A stretch of 64,000 bases of DNA from Gemmatimonadaceae bacterium (GTDB lineage: Bacteria > Gemmatimonadota > Gemmatimonadetes > Gemmatimonadales > Gemmatimonadaceae), in the NCBI GenBank assembly GCA_947457545.1, contig CANGXD010000002.1:48849-112848 (forward strand). The letters are read 5' to 3'. A program made the translations under genes and the position numbers. The notes beneath the pieces are model-generated. The model was not told where the DNA came from. It saw only the letters and a program-made list of their open reading frames with translations, and did not search any database. Positions 525 through 7,606 of this stretch are shown one piece after another (position 1 is the first letter of the stretch; each line of letters begins with the position of its first letter).

Positions 525-546
525 ACACGAGGTGCCGCATCTGATT

Positions 547-635
547 GCGGAATAATGTTTGCGGAAGAGGAACGGACACGCCGTACAAGACGGCGACCCG
601 TTCCTCTTTTTCGTGGAGTCAATGAATGCGCCTGT
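547..635. repeat. 89-bp direct repeat copy 1 containing a nested hairpin
   Basis: Matches 2731..2819 with one mismatch (gcgAccc vs gcgCccc); contains GAGGAACGG..CGCCGT-ACAAG-ACGGCG..CCGTTCCTC followed by TTTTT. Confidence 0.95.
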
Positions 636-1361
636 TCCAGCGAATCGTCTTCGCGTACGCCGGACCGCACGCCAGCTCCACGTGATCGCTCCGACCGGCA
701 CCACGAGATCCGTGAAGAGCGACATCACCCAAACTTTAGCGCCGTTGTGGGGGGCGAGGCGCACGGCCATCTGCGGCCTGTAGGAGCCAACGGACACACC
801 GATTTCCAAGCTTACCCACGAGCAACGATCGCGGGGGCGCTCTGAGGAGCAGGACGTTCATGATCCCGATTCCGCCGAGAAGACGTGAAGGACTCGGCTA
901 CTGTGCCGAGCACCTCGGCAGGAAATCCGTTTCAGGTGAAACGTTAGTGAAATGCGTTACGACTAGAGTGTAAAGGAAGTGCGATTGACGCGTGCTCACG
1001 TGTGAAGTCTCCAGATTCCGTGCGACGACACGACGCGCCCCTTAGGACCTAGGACTAGTTCAACCCTCCAACGGGGGAAATACGGTCGCGTTAGGGTCGC
1101 AGTTAGCGCGATCTTCTGCGGTCCCGTCGTAGAGATCGTAACTCTTTGACTCTGATAAGGAGAGAAGTTTCAATGAAGGAGCTTGAAGCAGAAGACACTG
1201 GAAAGTTATCCAGAGAAGCGACGGCGCTAGTTGAGAGCGGGGAATGGCTCGCGAAAATGGTCGCCGGGACTGCCGGTGCAATTGTCGGCGTCGCGTTCAG
1301 GAGGGCAAGACAGGAACCCCCAGTGTATCTTGAGAGAGGAATATTTTTCAATTGTAAGCCG

Positions 1362-3530: not shown

Positions 3531-3603
3531 GGGGCGTTAGCTCAGCTGGGAGAGCACCTGCTTTGCAAGCAGGGGGTCATCGGTTCGATCCCGATACGCT
3601 CCA
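3531..3603 (+). tRNA. tRNA-Ala (anticodon TGC)
   Basis: GGGGCGT...ACGCTCCA acceptor pairing; CTGCT-TTGCAAG-CAG anticodon arm; GGTTCGATCC T-arm. Confidence 0.97.
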
Positions 3604-3605
3604 CT
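3559..3605. repeat. att-like direct repeat, copy inside intact tRNA-Ala
   Basis: TGCTTTGCAAGCAGGGGGTCATCGGTTCGATCCCGATACGCTCCACT, identical to 7560..7606. Confidence 0.95.
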
Positions 3606-3677
3606 CGAGAAACACGCGAGAAGACATCTCGAAGTTTTTGTTTTTCATAGAGATACGCTCGCTAGGTGTAGGTCTAT

Positions 3678-3714
3678 GGGGGAGGGGCGCGGTCACCGCG
3701 CTCCTCCCTCTTTT
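3678..3714 (+). terminator. Rho-independent-like terminator downstream of tRNA-Ala
   Basis: GGGGGAGGGGCGCGG-TCA-CCGCGCTCCTCCCTC followed by TTTT. Confidence 0.7.
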
Positions 3715-4099
3715 GCTCTTGGTACTACTTCTGGTACGACTTTCGCCCGCAACCAGTCCCCTCGATGGAGCAGGGCGTGGCGTTGCTGCCCGCTGTCACC
3801 AAGCGCCCCTATCCTTCTCCGCAGGCGCGGTAGTCGCACCCAACGATAGGGGGAGTGATGGCGGAGAACTTCCTCCGGTCGCTCGGCAAGTCCGAGCTTC
3901 ATCTCTGGCGGTCTCCCACGATGATGATTGTCAGAATCCCTGCGCACGTTTGAGCGCGCGCGACTGACAAGTCACTCCCCCAAGCCTTCGTCACTGCGCA
4001 ATAGCGCATAGATTGACGCCGCCGGCGAGGAACCGTTGCGCCGATTGTCTCCATTCCGTCTATTGATACCGCGATATTTACTCGATTGAGGACGTCGAT

Positions 4100-5575
4100 A
4101 TGGTACGATCGATTTCATGGGCCGCAGGTTGGCGAGGCCTCGCGCGCCGCACACTTGCTCTGGCCAGCGTCTTAGGCGCGCTGCCCTCACTTGCGGCGGC
4201 GCAGGTGCGCGCCCCGCTCACGCCGGAGCAGATCGCAGCCGCTGGGCGGCGCTCGACCGTGACTATCGTCTCGCTCGACGCTGCCGGCGATACGGTGAGC
4301 CAGGGAAGCGGTGTCATTCTTCGAGCGGATGGCGTGATCGCGACCAACTGGCACGTCATGCAGGGGGCGAGCAGTGCGCGCATCAAGTTCGCGAACGGCG
4401 AGGTCATCGACCGCGTGCTGTTCTTGGACGGCGACTCTTTGGCTGACATTGCCCTGCTTCGCGTAGCCGGACTCAACTTGCCGGCCGCGCGAACCACGAG
4501 TGAAGTGCCGGCGGTAGGCGCGCGCGTGCTGGCAATTGGCGCGCCGTTGGGGCTGTCGCAGACCGTCTCCGATGGGCTGCTTAGCGCGGTGCGCCTCGTC
4601 GACGGAAAAACGATCATCCAGACCACCGCTGCCATCTCCCCCGGTAGCTCCGGCGGCCCAGTGTTTGATCTTCAGGGCCGCGTCTTCGCTATCGCCATGA
4701 GCACCATCGGCGAAGGCCAGTCGCTCAACTTTGCGACGCCGATCCGTTACGGGCTCGCGCTGCTACCCCTGGGGACAACGCCAAAACCGCTCGCCAGTGT
4801 TTTTGTCGGCGGCGCCGCCCCGGTGGGAGCCACCCAAACGGCCGCCCCCAGCAAGTCCGCCCGTCCGGCCGAGGGCGCAGGACTCCTGCCACTTCCGGCC
4901 AAGGCCGAGCGCCCCGACACTAGCATTGCCGGCACGTACGTGGTCCGGCATCAGGTCCTCCGGTCGTCGGGACCGTCCACGCCGCGGACGGGGCTCCTCG
5001 TGCTCGATCCCAAGGGCAATGGGTGGTTCATGACGGACCGTAATGATGAAGGGACGGGCATGCGCATCTACGGCGCAATCACCACGCGCACTGGCCGCGT
5101 CGGCTTCAAGCTATCCGGAAGCGAAGTGGTGGGTTACCAAACCGACGACGGGTTCGTGAGCATCTTCGAGCTAGACCGGGCCAAGGCGGACACGGTGCGT
5201 ATGGTCAACACGTGGGTCGACCTGTCGCTTAAGCAACCTGATGGCCTATACGACGTCTCGGGTCGGCTATCGTACTGGCCGGAGCGGAACCGGCGGAGCG
5301 ACTCCTCGCCGGGTACGTGGTGGGGCACGGCGGCCGCTGTTGCCACGACCGACTCCCTCTGGATTACTGTCTACCTCACCAACGAAAGCGGCGGATCGAC
5401 GCGGGTCGACGCGGAAACAAAGCGTGACGCCGACGGCAGCTTCGCGTGGACCGACCCGGAAACCGGCGACGCGATGCGTGGGCGCATCTCCGCGGGCGCG
5501 ATTGAGATTGATTGGGTTGATGCCCGGGACAAGGGCACGTCCTTCCGCGGGCGCTTGGTCGGCAAACGAAGGTAG
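4100..5575 (+). CDS. Secreted trypsin-like (S1C/HtrA-type) serine protease with a C-terminal extension
   Basis: Signal peptide (ALASVLGALPSLAAAQ); catalytic contexts IATNWHV (His), DSLADIALLRV (Asp), PGSSGGPV (Ser). Confidence 0.85.
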   Translation: MVRSISWAAGWRGLARRTLALASVLGALPSLAAAQVRAPLTPEQIAAAGRRSTVTIVSLDAAGDTVSQGSGVILRADGVIATNWHVMQGASSARIKFANGEVIDRVLFLDGDSLADIALLRVAGLNLPAARTTSEVPAVGARVLAIGAPLGLSQTVSDGLLSAVRLVDGKTIIQTTAAISPGSSGGPVFDLQGRVFAIAMSTIGEGQSLNFATPIRYGLALLPLGTTPKPLASVFVGGAAPVGATQTAAPSKSARPAEGAGLLPLPAKAERPDTSIAGTYVVRHQVLRSSGPSTPRTGLLVLDPKGNGWFMTDRNDEGTGMRIYGAITTRTGRVGFKLSGSEVVGYQTDDGFVSIFELDRAKADTVRMVNTWVDLSLKQPDGLYDVSGRLSYWPERNRRSDSSPGTWWGTAAAVATTDSLWITVYLTNESGGSTRVDAETKRDADGSFAWTDPETGDAMRGRISAGAIEIDWVDARDKGTSFRGRLVGKRR

Positions 5576-5723
5576 CGTCACGCGGACGTCATTCGCGACT
5601 GCGACTCGGCCGTCGCGCTCGTCGTCTATGGCATCGTTGCGGTCGACTTCAACAACGCGGGATCGCGAACATGCATGACGCGCCGTTCTACTTCACCGCT
5701 CTCGCATAAGTCTCGCTGGAGCC

Positions 5724-5927
5724 TCAGCGGAGGTGGTGAAACGAGTCTGGCGGGACCGAACAACCGGGCTCGACGGCGCGACGGACCGCGTCGAAGAGGT
5801 CAGAGGGCATGCTGCTCGCTGTCTCCCCTGTGAAGCGGGTCCAGAGCACTGGGGTAATGCATTCGACGATCCCAGCGAGACCATGTTCGTCGGCGGCGAG
5901 AAGCAGCGCGCGCTTGATGCCGTGCAC
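5724..5927 (-). CDS. Small hypothetical protein immediately downstream of Rep
   Basis: Same strand as Rep; MHGIKRALLLAADEHGLAGIVECITPVLWTRFTGETASSMPSDLFDAVRRAVEPGC; could start slightly upstream at a GTG. Confidence 0.4.
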   Translation of the reverse strand: MHGIKRALLLAADEHGLAGIVECITPVLWTRFTGETASSMPSDLFDAVRRAVEPGCSVPPDSFHHLR

Positions 5928-5942
5928 CGGCGCGAGCAGTGC

Positions 5943-7130
5943 CTAGTACCGGCGCGGAATCACAGCGATCACGGTGCCGACTTCGGGCGGCACGTACTTC
6001 GTGGACACCGCCGTCTCGCCGGGCGCCGCTAGGTCAGCGGCGACCGGCGGCGCCACGGGCGCCGCCGTCAGCTGGTCACGTGCGTATGCGGCTGGCGGGG
6101 CCGCAACAACGTCGCTTTGCTCCGCTACGGTCGCACGAGCACCGGCCCGAGCCGCCAATCCCGCCGCGACAGGGTCCGTCCGGTACGCCTTTGTCCAAGT
6201 AGTATCGAGATTCGGTCTCAGTTTGGCCATCGCGTCGAGGTACTCGCGGAACAGCACGACCGCGTGGGAATCGCCGAGTGTGGCGGCGCGCGCGAGCTCG
6301 AATACCGCCGACCCGTGCGGCTCCGACTCGGTACGATGTCGCACGTCACCCTTGGCGGCATAGGCCGGGTGGACGTCGCGGCTCCAGTCCGGATGGCGAG
6401 CGAGCGGCACGCGCGTCCCGCCGCTGGCGCGCTTCAGTGCCTTGACCCACGCCGCGCGCAGCTTCGTCACGACGCGCTCCTCTTCGTCGTCCGCCATGGC
6501 GGGCAGGAAAATCGGGACGTGGAAGTGAGGGTGCCACCCGTGAGCGTCACCGTGCACTACCTCCAGCACCCGCCGGAAGAAGGCACCGCGCTGCTGCAGG
6601 TCGCGAGCGGCGCGAGAGTTCTTGAAGAACTCCCACGCTTTCAGCATGTCACGAAGGACCCACACGAGGCGCTCCTCAACGCGATGGGGGCTAGTGAGCG
6701 TGAGCAGGCGAACGATGCCGCCGGTCGCGATGTGCAAATCGAAGACGGCCTTGAACTCTCGGCGCAGGGCGGTCCACTTGTCCTCGCGGCACGCGGCGCA
6801 CCCGTTCACGGAGCGACAGCGCGCGAGCCCGGTGAGGTACGCGCCCTTTTTCCCCTGTCGCACCGTGACGTCCAGCCGAGCTAGGGGAGCGATACCACAC
6901 GCGACGCCGGCGCGGCAGGTCAGCCCGGCCTCTTGGAGCGCCATCTGCAGCGCGGCCGCGTCGTCATGTCGGTCGGACGCATAGGCGTGATGTATAGGTT
7001 CGCCATGTATAGGTGTGAACGCGTTGCGATCACGGTTGGCGGAGGGGATGGAGGACACAGGCGGCGGCGTTGAGGCTGCGCGCCGGGGCCAGGTGATACG
7101 AGAGGGCGAACGCTGGCCGCGGTCGGACAC
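5943..7130 (-). CDS. Rolling-circle replication initiator (Rep_1-type, HUH endonuclease); start uncertain
   Basis: CRSVNGCAACREDK Cys cluster; LLTLTSPH (motif I); HGWHPHFHV (HUH motif II); FREYLDAMAKLRPNLDTTWTKAYR fits the motif III catalytic Tyr context. Confidence 0.88.
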   Translation of the reverse strand: MSDRGQRSPSRITWPRRAASTPPPVSSIPSANRDRNAFTPIHGEPIHHAYASDRHDDAAALQMALQEAGLTCRAGVACGIAPLARLDVTVRQGKKGAYLTGLARCRSVNGCAACREDKWTALRREFKAVFDLHIATGGIVRLLTLTSPHRVEERLVWVLRDMLKAWEFFKNSRAARDLQQRGAFFRRVLEVVHGDAHGWHPHFHVPIFLPAMADDEEERVVTKLRAAWVKALKRASGGTRVPLARHPDWSRDVHPAYAAKGDVRHRTESEPHGSAVFELARAATLGDSHAVVLFREYLDAMAKLRPNLDTTWTKAYRTDPVAAGLAARAGARATVAEQSDVVAAPPAAYARDQLTAAPVAPPVAADLAAPGETAVSTKYVPPEVGTVIAVIPRRY

Positions 7131-7220
7131 GCATGGCCAGCCTGGAAGGTTCGCGGCCCTTCGCGCCGGTTCAGCGCGAGGCGAGTCTCATCGCGGCATT
7201 CTCGTCGAAAACACGTGTAA

Positions 7221-7244
7221 CCCCGATGCGACGTCGCACCGGGG
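7221..7244. repeat. 24-bp near-perfect palindrome upstream of rep
   Basis: CCCCGATGCGACGTCGCACCGGGG, single mismatch; centre TGCGACGTCGCA is a perfect palindrome. Confidence 0.8.
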
Positions 7245-7436
7245 CCGCGCGCAGAGCACGCGCGCCATTGTGCATACACATTGACCTGCACTCGCAGACT
7301 AGCGTGATCCGCAGGCCGCTCGCCGGGGTGTTTGCCGTAGACGGGGCGTGGCGCCCCGCGGCCGCTACCGGTATACTCGACAGGGCCGGCGCGTGTCTGA
7401 ACGCGCCGCGTCGGCAGCACAGGGCGCGCTGAGCTC

Positions 7437-7462
7437 GGTACTACTTTGGGTACTACTTTCGC
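7437..7462. repeat. Tandem pair of ~13-bp repeats near the right end of the element
   Basis: GGTACTACTTTGGGTACTACTTTCGC; resembles 3721..3746 (GGTACTACTTCTGGTACGACTTTCGC) near the left end in the same orientation. Confidence 0.75.
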
Positions 7463-7559
7463 GCAAACTCCGATACCAATCGCTTGCGTCGCTTACCTGC
7501 AGATCGCCGTTTCCCCTCTGAAGCCTATCGCGCCTTGCGCTGATGGCCTGCGGACAGGG

Positions 7560-7606
7560 TGCTTTGCAAGCAGGGGGTCATCGGTTCGATCCCGATACGC
7601 TCCACT
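7560..7606. repeat. att-like direct repeat: displaced 3' half of tRNA-Ala
   Basis: Identical 47 bp to 3559..3605; lacks the tRNA 5' half. Confidence 0.95.

Follow-up and report, generated by a model that had tools for sequence, protein, structure and literature searches.

How has a DNA element of about 4 kb, which carries the gene of a rolling-circle replication initiator (Rep) and no gene for a recombinase, come to lie at a tRNA-Ala gene? The question is raised by a stretch of 64,000 nucleotides from a Gemmatimonadaceae bacterium (contig CANGXD010000002.1, positions 48,849 to 112,848; hereafter the window), for which a sequence-only reading had offered three routes of entry, namely a host recombinase, Rep itself, or an integrase that has since been lost. 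The element looks like a stripped-down relative of integrase-bearing kin which has entered by an enzyme since lost or borrowed, and we hold it to be probable that it is a decayed, non-autonomous member of a group of small tRNA-integrating elements that combine a rolling-circle Rep with a tyrosine integrase (Int). The features that bear on this answer most directly are listed here by window position.

3531..3604, + strand: intact tRNA-Ala(UGC) gene (ARAGORN; Rfam RF00005, 66.3 bits), whose 3' half forms the left attachment (att) core copy
3559..3605, + strand: attL core, 47 bp, beginning within the anticodon arm; perfect direct repeat
3606..7606, no strand: integrated element, 4001 bp with a single att core counted; missing from the exact site in the sister genome G309
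3721..3742, + strand: left arm-type site pair, GGTACTACTT-CT-GGTACGACTT, 12-bp period; both-end layout in 0/100 shuffles
7437..7458, + strand: right arm-type site pair, GGTACTACTT-TG-GGTACTACTT, 12-bp period; conserved in genome G252
7560..7606, + strand: attR core, 47 bp; perfect direct repeat

The insertion and its empty site

The two copies of the att core (3559-3605 and 7560-7606) have been found to be identical at 47 of 47 bases with a spacing of 4001 bp, which bears out both the perfect duplication of the tRNA-Ala 3' half and the size of ~4.0 kb given by the earlier reading. A repeat at both ends together with a restored tRNA gene marks a site-specifically integrated tRNA element; both are present here, with the tRNA intact by ARAGORN as well as by Rfam, and as assembled the locus is a piece of mobile DNA integrated at tRNA-Ala. 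An exact empty site (attB) has been observed in the sister genome G309 (~94.5% DNA identity over 4.4 kb), in which tRNA-Ala is joined directly to the right flank of the window, and the window flanks, when joined without the insert, align uninterrupted through the tRNA (locus L051). The proposal of an integrated plasmid-like element, which had been made to depend on an empty site among related genomes, is thereby upheld. In genome G306 (91%), the same right flank follows an identical core but different sequence lies inside the core, and the same site has therefore taken another insert (L058 10184-19901); this insert includes an insertion-sequence-type transposase gene, and neither its other end nor an integrase has been located. 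Because further genus members carry either no DNA or different DNA inserted 3' of tRNA-Ala, the site is, judged by these genome comparisons, an integration hotspot.

Arm-type sites, the missing integrase and integrase-bearing kin

Regarding the enzyme behind the insertion, a scan designed for tandem pairs common to both element ends, with 100 shuffles per element as controls, has recovered tandem GGTACKACTT pairs 115 bp inside the attL core and 123 bp inside the attR core. Against an expectation of 0.08, the word GGTACNACTT has been counted four times in the 64-kb window, and a search of the element's own genome for the GGTACKACTT pair with up to three mismatches has returned none beyond the two element ends. 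The same 12-bp-period layout, built from different words, has been observed in the integrase-bearing elements G157 (tRNA-Lys, +26/-131), G249 (tRNA-Ala, +18/-122) and L196 (tRNA-Ile, an Acidimicrobiales locus, +69/-140), and in each of the four elements, the present one included, 0/100 shuffles have matched the both-end layout. Among elements that carry Rep and Int, the layout is common, not universal. In Cluster J mycobacteriophages, a 44-bp tRNA core is flanked by paired direct repeats of 10 bp, which have been described as arm-type sites of the integrase (PMC3706429); by analogy, and with tandem repeats lying on both sides of the core, the GGTACKACTT pairs may be taken as tyrosine-integrase arm-type sites. 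Matches to the arm word in viral contigs have been set aside, those inspected being for the most part repeats within coding sequence of other phages, besides non-coding repeats unlinked to tRNA, and candidate matches in genomes G220 and G254 have been rejected as lying in unrelated chromosomal places.

The element itself encodes no enzyme that would use such sites. Pfam has shown no recombinase or transfer domain in its main open reading frames (ORFs) or in ten minor ones, unless Rep doubles as a relaxase, and the ORFs tested besides those of the protease and Rep have given no domain at all. A tyrosine-integrase hidden Markov model (HMM), purpose-built from the integrases of the compared genomes and run at maximum sensitivity over six frames with stops masked, has returned nothing above noise in the element, and tblastn with the integrases and accessory proteins (Xis-type helix-turn-helix (HTH), MerR) of related elements has likewise given noise only, for which reason an integrase relic inside the element has been rejected. 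Thus the observation of the sequence-only reading that the insert holds no tyrosine or serine recombinase ORF has survived the profile search it had called for. Zot/pI and coat domains, by which an inovirus prophage would be recognized, have not been found in the element either.

Integrases are present, however, among the kin. Distant Rep homologs have been found on tRNA-flanked elements, two of which belong to the same bacterial family, and the order on these is tRNA, Int-Xis-cargo-Rep, att. The earlier reading had suggested a search for Rep homologs between tRNA-Ala repeats; the homologs found lie at tRNA-Leu, tRNA-Lys and other tRNAs, with an integrase. In genome G224 a 6.8-kb element lies at tRNA-Leu with a 52-bp repeat, and in G157 a 7.3-kb element lies at tRNA-Lys with a 43-bp repeat; in both, Int stands beside the tRNA, Rep adjoins attR and is oriented as in the present element, and small Xis-type proteins and cargo are encoded. 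The G224 element (L149 3370-10152) encodes a CAP12/Pycsar-type TIR protein and a DUF4145 protein, which are likely defence cargo, and the G157 element (L150 4364-11628) encodes an MqsA-like HTH protein and a MerR-type regulator. In literature searches directed at elements of this type, no description of the integrase-bearing family relatives has been found, which is weak evidence for their novelty. A Rep profile search of GTDB species genomes has further returned Rep, Int and a duplicated tRNA end together in Burkholderiales, Curvibacter, Acidimicrobiales and Brevibacterium loci, with an FtsK-like gene in two Rep-Int loci, L221 and, by sequence inspection, L196. In a Gallionellales copy at tRNA-Met, the integrase is cut short within its catalytic domain, and this copy is possibly an intermediate in integrase loss.

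On account of the arm-site layout and the Int-bearing Rep kin, a tyrosine integrase has most likely inserted the element. It would have recombined attP, in which GGTACKACTT arm pairs lie on both sides of the 47-bp core, with the tRNA-Ala 3' half, which would restore the tRNA and leave attL and attR; the Int-Xis module, which adjoins the tRNA in the kin, would then have been deleted, with the protease cargo gene and the Rep gene kept between intact att sites and ~500 bp of non-coding DNA plus the cargo gene retained on the deletion side. The lineage would thus once have had an integrase of its own and would no longer be able to move unaided. As read from its ends and genes, the element has all the requirements in cis for integrase-driven movement and none in trans, and it may move only with outside help, either from a compatible integrase that enters the cell or from another element that integrates alongside (cis-mobilization), after which the circle could be replicated by Rep, if Rep is still active.

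Several observations weigh against this account. Six further Rep-Int elements scanned for arm pairs have given two weak signals and four times none, and the left arms stand 115 bp from the core here versus 18-69 bp in the kin. The arm word, sought in 399 genomes of the phylum and in the element's own genome, has led to no autonomous element, helper or integrase, and we therefore infer the cognate integrase; the own genome is 86% complete, so that a helper could be missing from it. The Rep of the element shares only ~23-31% identity with that of the autonomous kin, and direct descent from them therefore stays a proposal.

Rep, protease and surrounding features

The remaining features of the element are the following.

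3678..3710, + strand: terminator-like hairpin between the attL core and the left arm sites, from a consensus scan (15-bp stem, then a T-run)
4100..5575, + strand: cargo gene for a secreted HtrA/trypsin-like serine protease, 491 aa (Trypsin_2, E=2e-25; degP_htrA_DO, 3e-29, below cut-off)
5724..5942, - strand: conserved, apparently former C-terminal coding segment 3' of the rep TAG stop, with third-position-biased changes across the stop
5943..7130, - strand: rep, a Rep_1/PHROG 11698-type HUH rolling-circle initiator, 395 aa (Pfam, PHROG profiles, motif residues)
7352..7606, + strand: conserved right-end module, 94.5% identical in G252 and, over the last 125 bp, 97.6% in genome G055

Both proteins that the earlier reading had placed between the repeats, a Rep_1/HUH initiator and a secreted protease, have been confirmed by profile matches and motif residues. 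The protease ORF (4100-5575) keeps its H/D/S triad motifs intact, its best matches are HtrA-like, and full-length relatives with 40-42% identity occur in genomes G272 and G130. The Rep ORF matches Pfam Rep_1 at E=4e-5, which is under the curated cut-off, and PHROG 11698 at E=7e-23. The HUH motif and the catalytic Tyr that characterize such initiators have both been found, and the invariant residues of the Rep profile are kept (H149, H200-P-H202-F-H204 as HPHFH, and Y257 in Y257xxK), comprising the catalytic Tyr/Lys and the metal-binding HUH residues. A segment after YxxK, conserved among the Rep kin, is absent or shortened here. The predicted structure of Rep has a mean pLDDT (predicted local distance difference test) of 71.6, low near the catalytic Tyr, and its top Foldseek matches are adeno-associated virus (AAV) Rep HUH domains with a probability of 0.97-0.99 but a weak E of at least 7e-3; a search of solved structures by sequence has given no match, and no double-strand origin for Rep has been identified in the element. 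Because the post-YxxK segment is missing, the frame ends at TAG and the structure match is weak, the nicking activity of Rep is uncertain. The rep stop reads TAG in the window and in G252, and TGG in G055, where the frame continues. The frame beyond it (window 5724-5945(-); L055 2713-2983; L052 12560-12796) is conserved, with 5 synonymous and 0 nonsynonymous changes in 57 codons between G252 and G055; read-through, a separate small gene or a recent loss are possible.

In G252 and G055 the right-end module shows 94-98% identity versus roughly 68-82% for the flanking chromosomal matches, and in both genomes it is joined to a C-terminal fragment of Rep with the HUH part missing; by their sequence these copies are right-end remnants, and one full copy of the element is known. 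The DNA of the left end has shown no relative in the genus or family. The BlaI-BlaR1 genes beside the G252 remnant have been rejected as cargo, related genes lying shortly after tRNA-Ala in genome G182, and are probably local chromosome. Terminator-like hairpins have been found three times in the region versus 2.5 expected, and the one at 3678..3710 is a consensus match only.

Further insertions have been observed around tRNA-Ala. A second insert of ~2.2 kb lies just upstream of the tRNA element, bounded by a 120-bp, 89% direct repeat (window 542-661 and 2726-2845) with a terminator-like hairpin, and G309 has one copy of this repeat without the insert. Immediately 5' of the tRNA, between the matches to window 3298 and 3472, G309 (L051) has an additional ~6.8 kb which is absent in the window, and both sides of tRNA-Ala are therefore variable. 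Integrase-less tRNA-Ala inserts with core repeats and without Rep have been found in genomes G255 (1.4 kb, L103 4285-5791) and G366 (4.1 kb, L104 6913-11130), the latter with predicted proteins bearing pilin-like N-termini, plus a masked stretch; as siblings of the element both have been rejected, having neither Rep nor the arm word in common with it.

Other routes of integration and known systems

The main alternative is an actively mobile satellite, which never has an integrase, relies for excision and integration on one that acts in trans and comes from another element of the same core and arm specificity, and replicates by its own Rep. We regard this as possible, though on the tentative side, and as slightly more tentative still that such a Rep-bearing, integrase-free satellite is moving today among Gemmatimonadota via the tyrosine integrase of other tRNA-Ala elements. 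In its favour, the arm pairs and cores are intact and perfect though nothing in the element now needs them, the right-end module is met again in G252, arm pair included, and in shorter form in G055, and the integrase-less inserts of G255 and G366 occupy the same kind of site; recent activity is favoured by the intactness of the arm sites, by the perfect attR core and by the good conservation of the module. Furthermore, excision has been observed for an actinomycete integrative and conjugative element (AICE) whose integrase gene is truncated (PMC3218068), and a missing int alone therefore does not mean immobility. Against the satellite stand the failure to find, among the 399 phylum genomes searched and in the own genome, any donor or any integrase matched to these arm sites, and the single full copy, the other two being remnants without the HUH part of Rep.

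It is unlikely that a free circular plasmid with a tRNA-Ala fragment has been misjoined into the chromosome by a short-read assembler via the 47-bp repeat. The assembly is fragmented (321 contigs, 86% complete) and possibly short-read, and the contigs of G055 and G252 break close to their att sites; the contig of the window, however, continues for 112 kb through both junctions, and in usual assemblies the final k-mer or the read length exceeds a repeat of 47 bp. Integration catalysed by Rep, in which the HUH initiator would nick the tRNA and itself link the element to it, no tyrosine integrase being involved, appears very improbable. Rep is the only DNA-cleaving enzyme encoded, its catalytic His and Tyr are kept, and other kinds of HUH protein are capable of site-specific DNA integration, but the paired arm sites and the tRNA-half core would be left unexplained, the kin with the same type of Rep have a tyrosine integrase next to the tRNA and are integrated at various tRNAs, and the post-YxxK segment conserved in them is missing here; a need for paired arm sites is known neither for HUH Reps nor for Xer. 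Least probable of all is integration by the host XerC/XerD, as in integrative mobile elements exploiting Xer: the own genome has XerC/XerD-like recombinases, some filamentous phages integrate through Xer and phages PMBT54 and Bifilivirus encode distant relatives of Rep, but the target is a tRNA half and not dif, and a 47-bp core with arm sites is unlike the Xer layout. Taken together, of the routes first proposed the lost integrase is favoured by the Int-bearing, tRNA-flanked kin and the arm sites at both ends, and Rep or a host recombinase is disfavoured by the arm pairs.

Among the closest known systems, the element resembles a cis-mobilizable element (CIME), in which attL and attR are retained, recombination genes are lost and cargo is carried (PMC5704250, PMC7563491). 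Its att sites are kept, recombination and conjugation genes are absent from the ORFs tested, with the reservation already made for Rep as a relaxase, and its 4.0 kb falls within the 1.2-13 kb of classical CIMEs. Unlike these, it keeps a replication initiator gene and sits alone, not in tandem with an integrative and conjugative element (ICE) or an integrative and mobilizable element (IME); a CIME derives from such a parent by deletion, and although kin with Int exist, no ICE or IME with the same arm word and ends has been found. It may thus be called CIME-like by function, with an unusual retention of Rep. With AICEs of the pSAM2 type it shares a rolling-circle Rep and a tRNA-type att site, and AICE-like loci that encode FtsK-type Tra, Xis and Int (L221, L196) contain distant Rep homologs; AICEs are defined by Int, Rep and Tra (PMC3218068), whereas the element has Rep only, without integrase or FtsK/Tra, and its host belongs to the Gemmatimonadota. 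The Gemmatimonadota elements of G224 and G157 are alike in the place and orientation of Rep at the attR end and in a tRNA core repeat of 43-52 bp, G157 also in its 12-bp-period arm pairs, and differ by a tyrosine integrase beside the tRNA, by their size of 6.8-7.3 kb and by a Rep identity of about 24-31%. Rep homology also extends to filamentous phages and small rolling-circle plasmids (Bifilivirus B5, Pseudomonas phage PMBT54, Acinetobacter and Streptomyces plasmids), from which the element differs in being tRNA-integrated and in having no coat, Zot or morphogenesis gene.

Integrase-less elements of this kind escape searches that start from integrase genes, and an att core with arm-site pairs can reveal them. 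If the satellite explanation were true, the element would be a rolling-circle plasmid that outsources its integration. The Int-Xis-cargo-Rep tRNA elements of the same family, one of them with a CAP12/Pycsar-type TIR protein, resemble, outside the Actinobacteria, the core for rolling-circle replication and integration that AICEs have.

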